A stretch of 7,247 bases of DNA from NCBI GenBank assembly GCA_021129445.1, contig JAJOLG010000030.1, positions 1-7,247 of the forward strand, given 5' to 3'. The DNA comes from Candidatus Altimarinota bacterium (GTDB lineage: Bacteria > Patescibacteriota > Gracilibacteria > GCA-2401425 > JAJOLG01). Numbering within the stretch: the first letter of the stretch is position 1; each line of letters starts with the position of its first letter. The notes under the pieces were generated by a model. It worked only from the letters and a program-made list of their open reading frames with translations. It made no database searches and was not told the origin of the DNA. The position numbers and the translations under genes are program-made. This document shows, one piece after another, positions 1 through 7,247 of this stretch.

Positions 1-2918
1 AATGAAATCATGTTTATGTTTTAGCAACTGATACTTTAAAAAACTTTGAAAAAGAACTTAAATGATATGAATTATTGCACACAAGACTTTGAAAACAACT
101 TGTTCAAGCATGATTAACTTATGATCCAATTTTTAATTATTTTGAAAATGAGAAAGAAAATTGAGCTTTTAAATTGGTTTTAGCAGATTTTGTGACAACT
201 GACTCGTGAACTTGAATTGTTCATATTGCACCTGCATTTTGAGAAGACGATATGATGCTTTGAAAAAAAGAAAATTTGCCATTTATTCAGCATGTTTGAA
301 TGGATTGAAAATTTATTGAAAAAATTCAAAAAGATTTTTGAGATGAGTCCGTAAAAGATGCGAAAGATAATATGAAAATGGACAGAAAAATTGTTGAATT
401 CTTAGAAAAACAAAACAAAATTTTTAACAAAAAAAATCTAAGACATAGCTATCCAACTTGTTGGAGATGCGACACTCCTCTTTTGAATTATGCGACAAAA
501 ACTTGGTTTATCGCAGTTGAAAAAGTAAAAGATAAACTTTTAAAAAATAACAAAAAAATCAACTGGACACCAAAACATTTACAAGAATGAAGATTTTGAA
601 GATGGCTTGAATGAGCAAGAGATTGGGCAGTTTCGAGAAATAGATACTGGTGAACGCCTCTTCCAATTTGGAAAGATGAAGAATGACAAAATTTTGAATG
701 TATTTGAAATATTGAGGAATTATATCAATTAAATAAAGATTTTTGAGACATTACAAAAATAGTTTTTATCAGACATTGAAGAACTGATTTTAATGAAAAA
801 TGATTGATGGATTACCAAGATAAGGCAAAATTAAATGAAGATTGAAAAAAACAAGCAAAAAAAATTGCAGAAATATTTTGAAATGAAAAAATTGAAAAAA
901 TTTTTTCTTCACCACTTTCAAGATGTGTGGAAACAATTTCTCCACTTGCAGAAAAAATTTGAGTTGAAATTGAAAAAATTGAAGAATTTTCTGAAATAAA
1001 ATCTCCTGAATTGCAATGAAAAAAATTTTCTTGCAAAAATTATAAATGGGAAAATTGATATTGATGATGAGAAAAAATTTCTGAAAAATCTGAAAAAATT
1101 TCAAAGGAATTTAAAAAAATTTTAGATGAAAATAAATGAAAAACTATTGTAATTTGTTCACATTGAGACCCTCTTGTTTTGATGAGAAAATATTTAAAAG
1201 ATTTTGATTATGATAAAGAAAAATATACTTGTTGAAAATATTTAGAAAATAATCCAAAATATCCAATTGAAAAAATGTTTGCAGTTGATTATGCATTATC
1301 AGAAACTTGAAAAGAAATCGATTTGCACAAACATTTCATGGATAAAATTAAAATCAAAAAAGATTGAAAAACTTTAACAAAAGTGGAAGAGGTTTTTGAC
1401 TGCTGGTTTGAAAGTTGAGCAATGCCATATGCACAAAAACATTTTTTACACAATAAAGAACCAGATTTTAAATTTCCAGCAGATTTTATCGCTGAATGAC
1501 TTGACCAAACAAGGTGATGGTTTTACACACTTCATGTAATTTCAACAATTTTATTCGACAAACCTGCATTTAAAAATGTAATTGTAAGCTGAATTGTTTT
1601 GGCAGAAGATTGAAAAAAAATGTCAAAAAGTCTTCAAAATTACCCAGATCCAAATTTGATGTTTGATAAATATTGAGCAGATGTAATCAGATTTTATTTG
1701 ATGAATTCGCCAGTTGTTTATTGAGAAAATTTTAGATTTTCAGAAAAATGACTTGATGAAGTTATGAAATCTGTAATGCTACCACTTTGGAATTCTTATA
1801 GTTTTTTCACAATGTATGCGAATATCGATTGACTTGAAATTTGAAAAATTAATGAAAATAATTTAACAAACCTTGACAAATGGATTTTGTCAGAACTTGA
1901 ACTTGCTCAAAAAAACATCACTGAAAACATGGATAATTACAGTCTTTCATGAGCAACAAAAATATTTTCAAAATTTTTCGATAATATCACAAATTGGTAC
2001 ATCAGAAGATCAAGAAAAAGATTTTGGTCAAAAGCATGATGACAAAATCAAGCTGATAAACAAATTGCATACGACACACTGCATTATGTTTTAGTTGAAA
2101 CTTCAAAAATGCTTGCGCCATTTTGCCCATTTATTTCTGAAGAAATTTATAAAAACCTAACTGAAAATAATTGATCTTGAAAAAAATCTGTTCATTCAGA
2201 AGACTGGACAAAAATTTCAGAAAAATTTCTTGATGAAAAATTATCAGAAAAAATTGCAACAACTCAAAAAATTATTCAACTTTGACTTTGATTAAGAAAA
2301 AAATTAAAAATAAAAGTTAGACAACCTCTGCAAAAAATCAGAATTGCAATGCCAAAAATTGATATTTCTGATCAATTTAAAACAATTAAAGAAGAATTAA
2401 ATGTTAAAGAATTAGAATTTTTGGAAGATACTTCGGAAATTGCAGAAATTGCAGTTTTACCAAATGCAAAAATTCTTTGACCAAGATTTTGAAAAAAAGT
2501 CCAAGAAATCATAAAAAATGCAAAATCTTGAAACTACAAAAAATTAGAAAATTGAAATGTTGAAGTTTGTTGAGAAAAGCTTTCTTCTGAAGAAATAGCG
2601 ATTAGATATCAATGAAAAGATTGAAAAGAAGTTAGTGCAGAATGAGAAATTATTGTAAATTTTGACACTGAAATTTCAGAAGAATTAAAACTTGAATGAC
2701 TCGCGAGAGATATTATTAGACAAGTTGCTGAGATGAGAAAAGAGGCAAATTACAATATTACAGACAGAATTATTTTGGAAATTTCTGATGAAAAAGTGAA
2801 GGAGAAATTTTGAGAAATTATCAACCAGGAAACACTTTCTGAATTTTGAAAAATTGAAAATACGGATTTAGAATGAGAAATTGAGGGGGTTAAATTGAAA
2901 ATTTTTAAACAAAAATAA
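1..2918 (+). CDS. ileS: Isoleucyl-tRNA synthetase, type 2, with an inserted histidine phosphatase domain (5' end cut off by the window)
   Basis: This enzyme charges tRNA-Ile with isoleucine in the cytoplasm. The visible part is 971 residues in frame 3 with TGA read as Gly, ending at TAA 2916-2918; the N-terminal half of the catalytic fold with the HIGH motif lies outside. Numbering from base 3, the CP1 editing domain has [15 protein letters not shown] (69-83). A zinc-type knuckle CWRC is at 153-156, SRNRYWG at 211-217, a histidine phosphatase insert at about 250-436, DLHK at 440, FDCWFESGAMPYAQ from 465, and KMSKS at 539-543 followed by LQNYPDP. The anticodon-binding region and a C-terminal part with [11 protein letters not shown] (about 898-908) follow. 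NYPDP, FDCWFESG and the absence of a C-terminal zinc finger fit the eukaryote-like type 2 class rather than the E. coli type. About 63 of 64 Gly codons are TGA, with one GGG near the end. A hairpin terminator follows. Identity is certain; the role of the insert is unknown. Confidence 0.97.
750..1316 (+). other. Histidine phosphatase (phosphoglycerate mutase-like) domain inserted inside IleRS
   Basis: This domain of about 190 residues sits in frame between the synthetase's IEEL segment and its DLHK segment, which in ordinary type 2 enzymes lie close together. It has the full clade-1 histidine phosphatase signature. The strand KIVFIRHGRTDFN (from 756) holds the catalytic His at codon 774 and the phosphate-binding Arg. 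[14 protein letters not shown] matches the usual LTxxGxxQA helix. SSPLSR (906-923) supplies the second Arg, FSEI (987-998) the acidic residue, a GGGE run (1062-1073) matches the family's GGES-like loop, and ICSHGD (1152-1169) supplies the second catalytic His. Family members move or remove phosphoryl groups through a phospho-His intermediate, so the domain looks active. Its substrate cannot be read from the sequence. It uses TGA for Gly throughout, like the rest of the gene, so it is unlikely to be a recent insertion or an assembly join. Confidence 0.9.
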
Positions 2919-3012: not shown

Positions 3013-3327
3013 CTACTTAAAATTCCCCAAAACATGCAAATGAATATGCATCACCTCCTGCCCTCATTTCTCTCACACATTAAAATTCATTTTACATCAC
3101 TCCAAACCTAAATCCTTCGCAACTTTCGCTCAAACAAAGTGTAAATGCCCAACCAATTTTTCATCATCTTCCGACATATCAAAAATAGTCTTAATTTCTT
3201 TTTTTGGAATTACCAAAAAATGCACTTCATCTTGCGGATTTATATCTTTTATTGCAATACATAAATCGTCTTCGTAATATTTTTCAGCAGGAATTTCACC
3301 ATCGATAATTTTTTTAAAAATTGTCAT
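3013..3327 (-). CDS. HIT family (HinT-like) purine nucleotide phosphoramidase
   Basis: This 104-residue protein begins with ATG at 3327 and ends with TAG at 3013. HinT-type proteins hydrolyse purine nucleoside phosphoramidates and related adenylylated molecules such as aminoacyl-adenylates in the cytoplasm, usually as dimers. [18 protein letters not shown] (28-45) is the family's core strand region. [14 protein letters not shown] (88-101) holds the HIT triad His94, His96 and His98. The usual N-terminal CxxC is absent, as in several HinT proteins, and the chain stops three residues after VLG, so it lacks the longer C-terminal tail of many homologues. In the standard code it would stop after residue 65. 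Only 4 of its 9 Gly codons are TGA, the rest being GGT or GGG, unlike its neighbours. It lies 15 bases after the SLH gene and is probably co-transcribed with it; no Shine-Dalgarno is visible. Family assignment is firm, exact substrate unknown. Confidence 0.95.
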
Positions 3328-3342
3328 AAATGAAAAAATTAT

Positions 3343-3999
3343 TTAATACTCAGATAAACTCAAAGCTCTTGAAAACCAAGTTGCCATTTCTCATCTTGTC
3401 ACTTTTTTTTGTGGTAAAAAAATTCATTGAGGAAGTCAATTTTTTCAAATTTCTCATTCAAAAATTCAATATTCAAAGGCAGTATTTGCATATTTTGTAA
3501 ACCATTCATCGGCTGAAAAATCCCTAAAATGTCAAGATTCAAAATTTAAATCCAATCAAGTTGCCCTTAAAATAATTTTCATTGCTTCGGCACGATTTAT
3601 GTCATTTCAAGGCTTAAAAGTTCAATCTGGATATCATTTTACAAAATGATAATATCTCGCACTTTGCACATACGGATAAAACCAATCATTTTCAAAAACA
3701 TCGGAAAATGAATTATATCAAGCAATTTTATCATAAGCTACTCATAAAGTTCAAAGTGTAATAATTTTCGTCAATTCAGCACGAGTCAAAAAATCATCAG
3801 GATAAAAATTCTCCTTCACATCAATTATTCACTTTTTTCTCAAATCCTGAATGTAATCGTAATCATCTCTCGTATTTGGTACATCAATGTAAGATTGAGA
3901 AAAATTTAGTGCAAAAGTATTTTCTGAAAAACTAAAAATTCAGAAAAAAAATATTCAGAATGCCAAAAAAATTTTTAAAAACTGGAAAAAAATTTTCAT
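3343..3999 (-). CDS. Exported protein consisting of three SLH (S-layer homology) modules
   Basis: This 218-residue protein starts with ATG at 3999 and ends with TAA at 3343; no earlier start is needed because the chain opens with a good signal peptide. Residues 1-30 are MKIFF followed by a hydrophobic stretch and end in a likely cleavage site after NTFA. The rest is three SLH modules at about 36-90, 95-150 and 157-215. Landmarks are YIDVP and TRAE (72-75) in the first, FSDV, GYPDGTFKPGNDINRAEA (122-139) in the second, and TRGE (201-204) in the third. SLH triplets bind cell-wall polymers, typically pyruvylated secondary polysaccharides, and anchor proteins to the surface. No other domain is attached, so this is an anchor without a recognisable cargo. 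All 17 Gly codons are TGA. The gene follows secA, whose product would export it, and precedes the HIT gene by 15 bases. Confidence 0.93.
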
Positions 4000-4020
4000 A
4001 AAAAGAAATTATTTTTTTCT

Positions 4021-4076
4021 AATTATGAAAATTTTTTTTTAATTATGCAAAATTTTTTTTAATATATAATTTTTTT
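4021..4076. repeat. Tandem A/T-tract direct repeats in the secA-SLH gap
   Basis: Two copies of a 20-base unit, AATTATG then A-run then T-run, stand head to tail at 4021-4040 and 4041-4060, differing mainly by one extra C and the tract lengths. A looser third copy, an AATATATAAT followed by a T-run, fills 4061-4076. The repeat covers most of the 75-base space between secA and the SLH gene and contains the proposed promoter. It could be a regulator-binding or DNA-bending element, or simple slippage-driven expansion. Confidence 0.5.
4022..4050 (-). promoter_or_regulatory. Possible sigma-70-type promoter for the SLH-HIT genes
   Basis: On the minus strand TTGCAT (4050-4045) resembles a -35 box and CATAAT (4027-4022) a -10 box, with a spacer of exactly 17 bases. 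Transcription would start near 4015, about 16 bases before the SLH ATG at 3999. The flanking A-tracts could act like UP elements or simply bend the DNA. In DNA this AT-rich such matches arise easily by chance, so confidence is limited, but it lies in the only long gap between the minus-strand genes. Confidence 0.4.
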
Positions 4077-6801
4077 ATCTTCAACAACACTTCTTAAATT
4101 TCTTTCAAGACCCGCAAGGACACTTATCATTCCTTCAAACTCACTTAAATTTTTCATCTTGAACAGAAGTTTTTTCGTACGCATTAATAATTTTTCATCA
4201 TTTTGGAATTTTTTCGTAATCAACTCAAATTATTTCAACTCATCAAATATTTTTTTGAGAAGAATTTTCTTTTCTCTGTTGAGCAAAAAAATTATTTAAT
4301 TCTGCAAAATCTTCTCAATAATTTAAATTTTTCTGAATATCTGAAACATTTAAATTTATTGGTTGAACTGGTAAATCTTTCTCGCTTGGAAATTGTCAAA
4401 ATTCTGATTTGAAAAATGTGGAAAGCATATTTCTTCAAATATTTCAAATTAAATTTTTGAAAGATTTAAATGCTTCTTTTTTGTATTCCAAAAGCGGATC
4501 TCTTTGTCAATATCAAGCCAAAGAAGTCTGCTCTCTTAATCTCGACATATTGTCAAGATGCTCCATCCACAAAGAATCAATTGTTTGCAAGTAAATCTCT
4601 CTTTGAGCAGTTTTAAAAATTTCAACATTTCATTCAACTGTGTAAAATTCTTTTTTACTTTCATAATTTTTTAACAAGAAATCAAAAATAATTTCAATCA
4701 TTTTTTCTTTTGTTTTTCAATGTTCTTGTAAATATTCAAGTGAAAAAATTCAAAAATTATGAATTCATGCAACATCATCCCAAATTATTTTGTAATCCCA
4801 TTCTGAAATATTTAAATCCAAAGTATGTGCATCAACAATTCTTTCTGCAAATAATTTTATTTGCTCTCTAATTAAATCTGAAATATCATCTCAAAATAAA
4901 ATTGCTTTTCTTCTTTCGTAAATAATTTGCCTGTGTTTATTTAAAACATCATCATATTTTACAATATGCTTTCTTGAATCAAAATGATGAGTTTCAACTT
5001 TTTGCTGAGCTCACTCAACAGACTTTGTAATCATTCAGTTTTCAATTGGCATATCATCAGGTACTCACATCGCATGCATCATATTTTTCATTTTTTCAGA
5101 TCCAAAAATCCTCATCAAATCATCATCCATTGAAATGTAAAATTGCGATTCTCATGGGTCTCATTGACGACCTCATCTTCATCTTAATTGATTATCAATT
5201 CTTCTTGATTCATGCCTTTCTGATCACAAAATAAATAAACCTCAAAGCTCCTTTACTCATTCTCAAAGTTTAATATCTGTTCATCTTCAAGCCATATTTG
5301 TCGCAATTGTCACAGCTCATTTTTGCCCTGCTTGTGAAATAATTTCTGCTTCTTTTTCGTGATATTTTGCATTTAAAACACTGTGTGGAATTCATTCTCT
5401 GTTAAAAACGCTTGATAAAATTTCTGATTTCTCAACAGAAACCGTTCAAATTAAAACGGGCTGTCATTTTTCTCTTAACTCTTTTACTTTTCTTGCAATT
5501 GCTAAATATTTTCAATTTGCAGATTTAAAAATCGCATCTGGTCTGTCCATCCTTACAATTGGTCTATTTGTCGGAACAACAATAGTATCAAGTCAATAAA
5601 TTGTTCAAAATTCTTCCGCTTCTGTTTCAGCAGTTCAGGTCATTCAAGCAAGTTTTTCATAAAGTCTAAAAAAGTTTTGAAATGTAATTGACGCCAAAGT
5701 TTTCGACTCTTTTTGCACTTTTACTCACTCTTTTGCCTCAATTGCTTGATGTAATCATTGTCAAAATCTTCTTCATTTCATCAACCTTCAAGTAAATTCG
5801 TCAACAATTAAAATTTCTCAATCAGGAGAAACCATGTAATCTTTATCTTTTTTGAAAATATAAGTTGCTTTTAAAGCTTGTTCGATATGATGAACTTCTT
5901 GAAATCATTTTTCTGTATAAATATTCTCAACTCACATCAATTTTTCCATGTGGGAAACTCATTCTTCTGTCAAAGTCGCCGTCTTCATTTTTTCATCAAT
6001 TTTAAAATCCTCTTCCGGAATTAAATTTTTCACCAAAATCGCATATTCAACATACTTATCAGTAGATTCATCAGCTGGTGCAGAAATAATTAAAGGGGTC
6101 CTCGCTTCATCAATCAAAATTGAATCAACCTCATCAACAATTGCAAAATGTAAATCTCTCATCACAATTTGAGAAACATTTGGAACCATATTATCTCTCA
6201 AATAATCAAATCAATAATTATTGTTTGTTCAGTAAGTTATATCAGAATTATAAGCCTCTTTTTTTGCTTCAACATCCTGCTCCTGCGAAATTACTCACAC
6301 GGAAAGTCAAAGTAAATTAAACAAAATTCACATTTCCTTCGCATCTCTTTCCGCCAAATATTGATTTACCGTCACCAAATGAGCTCATTTTCAATCCAAA
6401 GCATTCAAATAAAGTGCCAAAGCAGCCACAAGAGTCTTTCATTCTCATGTTTTCATCTCCGCAATCTTTCACTCATTCAAAATCATTGCTCAAATCAATT
6501 GAACATCATACGGCACCATTTGCCAAATCTCTGTCGATTCTCACTTTTTATATTCAAATTTTTTGTTCGTCAAAAACCTACATCAAACCTTTGCCAAAGC
6601 CAAAGCTTCAACCAAAATATCATCAAGTTTTTTTCAATTTTTTAATTCCTCCTTAAAAAAATTTGTTTTCTCAACAAAATTTTCTTCTGTAAAATTTAAA
6701 AATTTTTCTTCTGTTTTGTTTATTTTTTCTACAATTTGTCTGTACCTTAAAATTTCTTTATCGTTGTATGATGGGAAAAGTTTTTTTAGTAGTTGTTTCA
6801 T
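4075..6801 (-). CDS. secA: Preprotein translocase ATPase SecA
   Basis: SecA drives unfolded preproteins through the SecYEG membrane channel using ATP. This copy is 908 residues, near the 901 of E. coli, from ATG 6801 to TAA 4075. The opening [17 protein letters not shown] resembles other SecA N-termini and supports the start. Nucleotide-binding domain 1 has Walker A MKTGEGKT (116-123) and Walker B DEVD (223-226). The preprotein-crosslinking region follows, then MTGTAETE (387-394). Domain 2 has TNMAGRGTD (501-509) and QLRGRGGRQGDPG (538-550), which holds the arginine-finger region. The helical scaffold keeps IDSLWMEHL and [13 protein letters not shown]. The C-terminus CPCGSGKKFKKCCG (894-907) is the zinc-binding tail for SecB or ribosome contact. 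Most Gly codons are TGA, with a few GGT, GGG and GGA. The ATG lies 5 bases after the toxin gene stop and has no Shine-Dalgarno, so it is probably in the same transcript. Confidence 0.98.
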
Positions 6802-6806
6802 TTTTT

Positions 6807-7049
6807 TTAATAATTATGTTTATCAAAGTGAAATATTTTTATTTCATTATTTTTATATGTACACCACAATCTGTATTGTTTATTTATTTTAAAATAATAA
6901 ATATTATCAGATTTTGGATTTCTTAATCTAAAATCAACATTTTTCATTTTTCATTCTTTCAAAAATTTTTCAACTTTTTCATACTGTTTCAATAATCACC
7001 TTTTTGAAATCTCATCCAAAATCTTTTCTCAAATAAAAATTTTATTCAT
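6807..7049 (-). CDS. RelE/ParE-superfamily toxin of a type II toxin-antitoxin pair (putative)
   Basis: This small basic protein has 80 residues, from ATG 7049 to TAA 6807, with three TGA Gly codons. Residues 1-32 begin with MNKIFIGEKI and then form a Lys/Glu-rich helical stretch. They are followed by FRLRNPKSDNIYYFKINKQ (40-58), then YRLWCTY (59-65) and a last strand ending FHFDKHNY (73-80). This helix-then-strands pattern, with a basic FKINKQYR core strand and a histidine near the C-terminus, is typical of RelE/ParE/HigB-like toxins. RelE types cut mRNA on the ribosome and ParE types attack gyrase; the sequence does not tell which. The preceding gene stops 2 bases before this ATG, the usual antitoxin-first arrangement. 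No Shine-Dalgarno is seen, so translation may be coupled. It is directly followed by secA. Family assignment rests on recognition by eye. Confidence 0.68.
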
Positions 7050-7051
7050 AT

Positions 7052-7247
7052 TTAACGCTCAATAAAATTTATTTTATCAATATTTTTATAAGATTTCAAA
7101 ACATCATCAGGTGCATCATCAACAGACACCTTAAAAAAATCAATATTATCACTATTCAATTCTCTTTTTAAAAAATCAACAAACTTAATTTTGATTTCAT
7201 ATTGCGAATAATTTTCCGTTAAAAATACATCATTAATTGTGATAGTC
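7052..7247 (-). CDS. Small protein of unknown family, possible antitoxin partner (5' end cut off by the window)
   Basis: The last 64 or so residues of this gene are visible, read from the window edge to TAA at 7052-7054. I do not recognise the family. The visible chain starts TITINDVFLTEN, continues through a Lys-rich helical-looking part (KIKFVDFLKRELN) and an acidic part (VSVDDAPDDVLKSY), and ends DKINFIER. It has no glycine, so no in-frame TGA, and no clear DNA-binding motif in the visible part; such a domain could lie upstream. Its short length, acidic tail half and position 2 bases before a RelE/ParE-like toxin gene suggest an antitoxin. That role is inferred from context only. The reading frame is open throughout, and the alternative frames contain many stops. 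Confidence 0.6.
   Translation of the reverse strand, partial: TITINDVFLTENYSQYEIKIKFVDFLKRELNSDNIDFFKVSVDDAPDDVLKSYKNIDKINFIER

Follow-up and report, generated by a model that had tools for sequence, protein, structure and literature searches.

The window, ie the whole stretch of 7,247 nucleotides analysed here, opens within ileS, a gene for a type 2 isoleucyl-tRNA synthetase (IleRS) that carries a nested histidine phosphatase (HP) domain. Read with genetic code 25, in which TGA is glycine, the gene forms a single open frame on the plus strand at positions 3-2918, giving 971 residues and using 63 TGA codons. The contig start cuts off the 5' end of ileS, and approximately 250 N-terminal residues are absent, including the HIGH motif (HYGH in relatives of this IleRS). 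The frame matches TIGR00392 with E=1.4e-178; the score of 595.8 bits, against an equivalog cut-off of 621.4, is that of a protein which lacks those N-terminal residues and whose match is split by the insert. In Pfam, tRNA-synt_1 appears in two halves with PF00300 between them, at the insertion point designated A1 below. The synthetase motifs on either side are intact, as an earlier sequence-only reading had reported. They comprise SRNRYWG upstream of the insert (positions 633-653, residues 211-217), DCWFESG downstream (1398-1418, residues 466-472) and the KMSKS signature loop (1617-1631, residues 539-543). The 15-residue motif of the CP1 editing domain (207-251, located from the translation and the invariant columns in A1) is likewise intact, and is followed beyond the insert by the anticodon-binding domain PF08264 (1875-2336, E=2.7e-34) and the C-terminal domain PF19302 (DUF5915; 2382-2864, E=5.7e-34). 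KMSKS, the CP1 motif and the anticodon domain are the features that mark the protein as a type 2 IleRS. An AlphaFold model of the frame (mean pLDDT 83.1, pTM 0.62, insert mostly above 85) aligned over its whole length with type 2 enzymes, 8c8u, yeast 8z1p and 8wnd, and 1ile being at the top by Z, and type 1 structures gave lower Z values.

The remainder of the window is coded on the minus strand. A HIT-family protein, an SLH-domain protein and SecA, all in code 25, occupy 3013-6801. At 6807-7246 a RelE/HigB-like frame (PF05015, E=0.0012, under the cut-off) follows an open-ended frame of 64 residues, possibly as a toxin-antitoxin pair.

By profile, residues and predicted fold the insert is a complete clade-1 histidine phosphatase, for which activity is predicted. 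The core match to PF00300 (His_Phos_1) lies in frame at positions 759-1214 (residues 253-404), with E=1.2e-28 and a score of 100.5 bits against the Pfam cut-off of 21.7. The whole fold, delimited by comparing the model with the phosphoserine phosphatase 4ij5, covers 750-1322 (residues 250-440), and the limits of 750-1316 proposed earlier from the letters agree with it. The HP fold anticipated in that reading was found, residues 250-440 superposing on 4ij5 with Z 20.7 at 2.3 Å over 177 residues, and all four of the motifs it had listed are present. They supply the full clade-1 catalytic set: R257 and the nucleophile H258 in R257-H258-G259 (771-779), R307 of SPLSR (921-923), the candidate proton donor E331 of FSEI (993-995) and the second catalytic histidine, H387 of SHGD (1161-1163). 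It follows from the HP family that His258 would accept the phosphoryl group and Glu331 protonate the leaving group, with hydrolysis completing the reaction, while Arg257, Arg307 and His387 would hold the phosphate. Two more specific identities were rejected, namely 2,3-diphosphoglycerate-dependent phosphoglycerate mutase (NF038349, 67.7 bits against an equivalog cut-off of 225) and alpha-ribazole phosphatase (TIGR03162, 66.8 bits against 162.9).

The SRNRYWG and DCWFESG motifs are 248 residues apart in the window protein, compared with 57-71 residues in type 2 IleRSs without an insert among the matches listed, which are mostly from other phyla; the short linker previously ascribed to ordinary IleRS is thus confirmed. 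Its placing in roughly CP2 needs correction. In yeast IleRS numbering CP2 comprises residues 420-458 and CP3 residues 459-526 (PMC7955072), and on this scale the window's site belongs to CP3, as judged from the adjacent A2 insert, which maps to yeast residues 514/516. The polypeptide would be two enzymes in one, a type 2 IleRS joined to a complete clade-1 HP that is predicted to form a domain of its own, projecting from a surface loop of the synthetase.

The window genome (G000) consists of 673 kb in 77 contigs and is 94.8% complete. The copy embedded in IleRS is the only PF00300 domain in it, and the window IleRS is the only IleRS detected. Other matches to TIGR00392 were read as LeuRS, MetRS and the N-terminus of ValRS, the last at the end of contig C32, and a second, plain IleRS was therefore rejected. 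As this is the only IleRS found, tRNA-Ile is presumably charged by the two-domain enzyme with the insert present, barring a second gene in the missing 5%.

The architecture is not peculiar to one assembly. We surveyed 59 genomes drawn evenly from the window's class, each with a completeness of at least 90%, counting an HP as embedded when its host exceeded about 850 residues or was a code-25 IleRS; the count was made by hand from open-frame lengths and positions. An HP inside a large host protein was present in at least 38 of the 59, 19 had none and two were undecided. Fused HP-IleRSs are also found in numerous other families of the phylum and in named metagenome-assembled genomes (MAGs) of Peregrinibacteria and Yanofskybacteria. 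Many candidate phyla radiation bacteria have one to three complete HP domains in the loops of their IleRS. The distribution is wider than was first thought, and extends to several sites, several hosts, other inserted enzymes and movement of the domain. Since catalytically complete HP-IleRSs recur in many independent genomes, standard-code genomes included, an assembly artefact is ruled out. Among at least 80 loci listed, long IleRS insertions came from Patescibacteria, from bacteria with no taxon label and from one MAG labelled Spirochaetia. The fused IleRS of this 0.4-Mb MAG (G377, locus L150) groups with those of Patescibacteria, and the MAG is probably misnamed or mixed.

Insertion sites were mapped on an IleRS free of inserts (L095). 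HPs occupy four points in IleRS, with at most three in a single protein, a number reached in L057 and L073. Site A1, that of the window, lies near residues 484-490, before DLHK, and A2 near residues 503-509; site B is in the HYPFEN loop near residues 536-544, and site C lies between the catalytic and anticodon domains near residues 665-688. A genome from the same order as the window's (G001) has its HP at B instead of A1. There are four host proteins. ValRS carries one to three embedded copies, and IleRS and ValRS, often both within one genome, far outnumber the other hosts seen; the counts come partly from queries with IleRS flanks, which favour IleRS, and partly from PF00300 searches free of that bias. 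The other two hosts, both identified by NCBIfam, are a class II AlaRS (L130, G024:C95), with the HP at residues 398-566 of 1062, and UvrB (L133, G009:C69), with the HP at residues 469-642 of 1125.

Throughout these settings the catalytic residues are maintained. In an alignment of 80 embedded copies the nucleophile histidine is present in all 80, the arginine that precedes it (R257 in the window) in 79, the SPLSR arginine in 80 and the second histidine in 78, whereas in the median column the most frequent residue accounts for only 33%. The acidic residue is kept in 73 (70 Glu, 3 Asp); the losses are mostly in ValRS and AlaRS copies, and alignment error may explain some of them. The earlier reading allowed that the domain may be only a structural insert. 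It would then be a spacer or tRNA-binding surface in which catalysis is no longer important; in favour of this, inserted domains in synthetases are often structural, and one copy (L138) has lost one arginine and the second histidine. Near-invariance of the catalytic residues against so variable a background would, however, be difficult to account for unless the reaction is under selection, and we regard the structural explanation as improbable. Conservation is concentrated at positions that are general to HPs.

The interpretation we favour, at roughly even confidence, is that the insert is a working small-molecule phosphatase, a permissive, exchangeable module that IleRS carries, with standard HP chemistry and work independent of aminoacylation. 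The substrate would most likely be a small phosphorylated metabolite, handled without the synthetase, which would serve mainly as a carrier: a protein that is always made and has several loops tolerating whole domains. Four considerations lead us to favour this: the sites vary, some of the hosts are unrelated to the rest, the conservation is of general HP positions, and other HPs are more often missing where a copy is embedded. On the last point, 20 of the 38 genomes with an embedded HP have no other PF00300 domain, against 4 of the 19 without one (Fisher p=0.027, computed without correction for kinship), so that the nested HP may stand in for a free one in genomes lacking another. Weighing against this interpretation, four genomes (G014, G023, G052 and G244) yielded no HP in the PF00300 search of the genome set, and the HP reaction is therefore not universally needed.

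The loops of IleRS also accept enzyme domains unrelated to HP, which supports the synthetase as a carrier. NUDIX domains with the Nudix box kept are found inside the IleRSs of L058, L071, L087 and L134, and a serine-hydrolase domain in L058 and L087 and, by eye, in L057. A GNAT acetyltransferase domain lies at site B of L075 (G007), occupying a loop where relatives have an HP. In two members of family f9, L236 (G008) and L242 (G029), an IS200-like Y1 transposase domain (PF01797) interrupts the CP1 region in frame, at residues about 354-469, with the HUH motif HIHLVV or HVHLVV.

The main argument against the synthetase as a pure carrier is the preference for IleRS and ValRS, for which that model gives no explanation. 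Because this preference is strong, coupling of the HP to the synthetase stays a serious rival, although a distinctly less probable one than an independent phosphatase. The HP would then act on a compound made or met at the synthetase, as the sequence-only reading had proposed, or regulate charging; candidates are pyrophosphate, aminoacyl-adenylate, diadenosine polyphosphates, a phosphorylated tRNA end and a phosphorylated or phosphoramidate inhibitor. Both preferred hosts, often fused in the same genome, are editing class Ia enzymes, and sites A and B lie in or adjoin the catalytic half (PMC7955072). The same enzymes receive NUDIX domains as well. NUDIX domains often hydrolyse nucleotides. Against coupling, there are four insertion points, and class II AlaRS and UvrB are hosts along with ValRS; as both sites and hosts differ, no single geometry to one active site is needed. 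The inserted enzymes are moreover unrelated to one another, and the conservation at general HP positions points away from action near the synthetase site. Replacement of editing is not indicated, since the CP1 editing motif is intact. Nor is the need for an extra pyrophosphatase obvious: the window genome encodes a DHHA2-type (family II) candidate, its searches for PF00719 and PF03030 pyrophosphatase domains being negative, and we rejected that role for the HP.

In the HP tree the copies cluster mainly by insertion site and host, from which we take most embedded HPs to be inherited, and most site groups are inherited across genera. Against this background some copies have a history apart from that of the synthetase core. 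The window HP is sister to the IleRS HP of a genome from another family (G058; support 100/98), the two being 65% identical in the HP and 47% in the IleRS core, the largest such excess among 561 pairs. Forcing the two IleRS cores together was rejected (AU p=1e-6), as was forcing together the HPs of G058 and G042, both of family f15 (AU p=0.013); these p-values are optimistic, the groups having been noticed before the tests were run. Since the HPs of the window and G058 are sisters and their cores are not so related, the domain has moved separately from the core. Movement between hosts is suggested by two placements: the UvrB HP of G009 pairs as sister with that genome's own IleRS HP (99/91), and the AlaRS HP is nested among ValRS HPs (100/92).

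Such a pattern could also mean that the HP stretch is a mobile in-frame cassette, spread by recombination and tolerated as its ends are close together, with use to the host secondary. The discordant window and G058 trees, the UvrB and AlaRS copies, and the Y1 transposase domain of the f9 IleRSs, which is missing at the corresponding position of a close relative (L238), all fit this. The window junctions, however, have no terminal repeats or target duplications, only chance A-T-rich repeats, and classical transposon ends were rejected there. Same-site exchanges would need no more than recombination between conserved flanks, which would leave the same lateral signal with no mobile element involved. 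With most site groups inherited, and a catalytic conservation that implies benefit, we consider a cassette of this kind unlikely. More tentatively than for the independent phosphatase itself, we suggest that IleRS and ValRS of candidate-phyla bacteria may be landing platforms for whole enzyme domains. HPs would be exchangeable cassettes, passing in frame from lineage to lineage and from one essential gene to another unrelated to it (IleRS to UvrB, ValRS to AlaRS) with catalysis kept, and nested insertion would build multi-enzyme proteins.

Several known systems resemble the window protein in part. The clade-1 HPs 4ij5, PhoE (1h2e) and the riboflavin-pathway phosphatase 9mmh have the fold and catalytic set in common with it (Z about 19-21 over about 177 residues), but they are free-standing whereas the window HP is nested whole in IleRS, and because identity is only 20-25% their substrates are not transferable to it. 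An RNase H/acid phosphatase (NF005567) and the MutT1 Nudix-HP protein (NF052459) likewise join an HP to another enzyme, and the insert matches their HP parts; both are tandem, end-to-end fusions, unlike an HP nested in an essential synthetase. NCBIfam NF040702 describes an IleRS with an N-acetyltransferase, likewise an IleRS with an extra enzyme domain and comparable to the GNAT at site B of L075. The enzyme is a different one: Pfam finds no GNAT domain in the window protein, whose 223 bits (cut-off 1999) come from the IleRS part that the two have in common. The CP1 editing domain of IleRS, ValRS and LeuRS is hydrolytic as well and lies within the catalytic domain, but CP1 is general in class Ia enzymes and sits in one place, whereas the HP is patchy, occupies four places and occurs in UvrB too. 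LeuRS editing domains have been described as insertion-only modules in synthetase hosts (PMC13114784).

Domain insertion into synthetases is thus already known in kind, from CP1 and from IleRS with GNAT, and the new part is the repeated, multi-site, multi-host pattern of HP insertion. In the open full-text literature we found no description of an HP in IleRS, ValRS, AlaRS or UvrB, though domain databases may record such proteins without comment. Few enzymes are as strongly conserved as synthetases, whose catalytic half normally contains only a small number of old inserts. This bacterial class as a whole has placed intact enzymes inside IleRS and ValRS again and again, and maintains their active-site residues. 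It thereby becomes possible to test how 190 extra residues are accommodated by an essential enzyme, whether its two activities show crosstalk, and whether domains travel between genes as units. It also bears on annotation, as in many such genomes the sole HP is hidden in a synthetase gene such as ileS.
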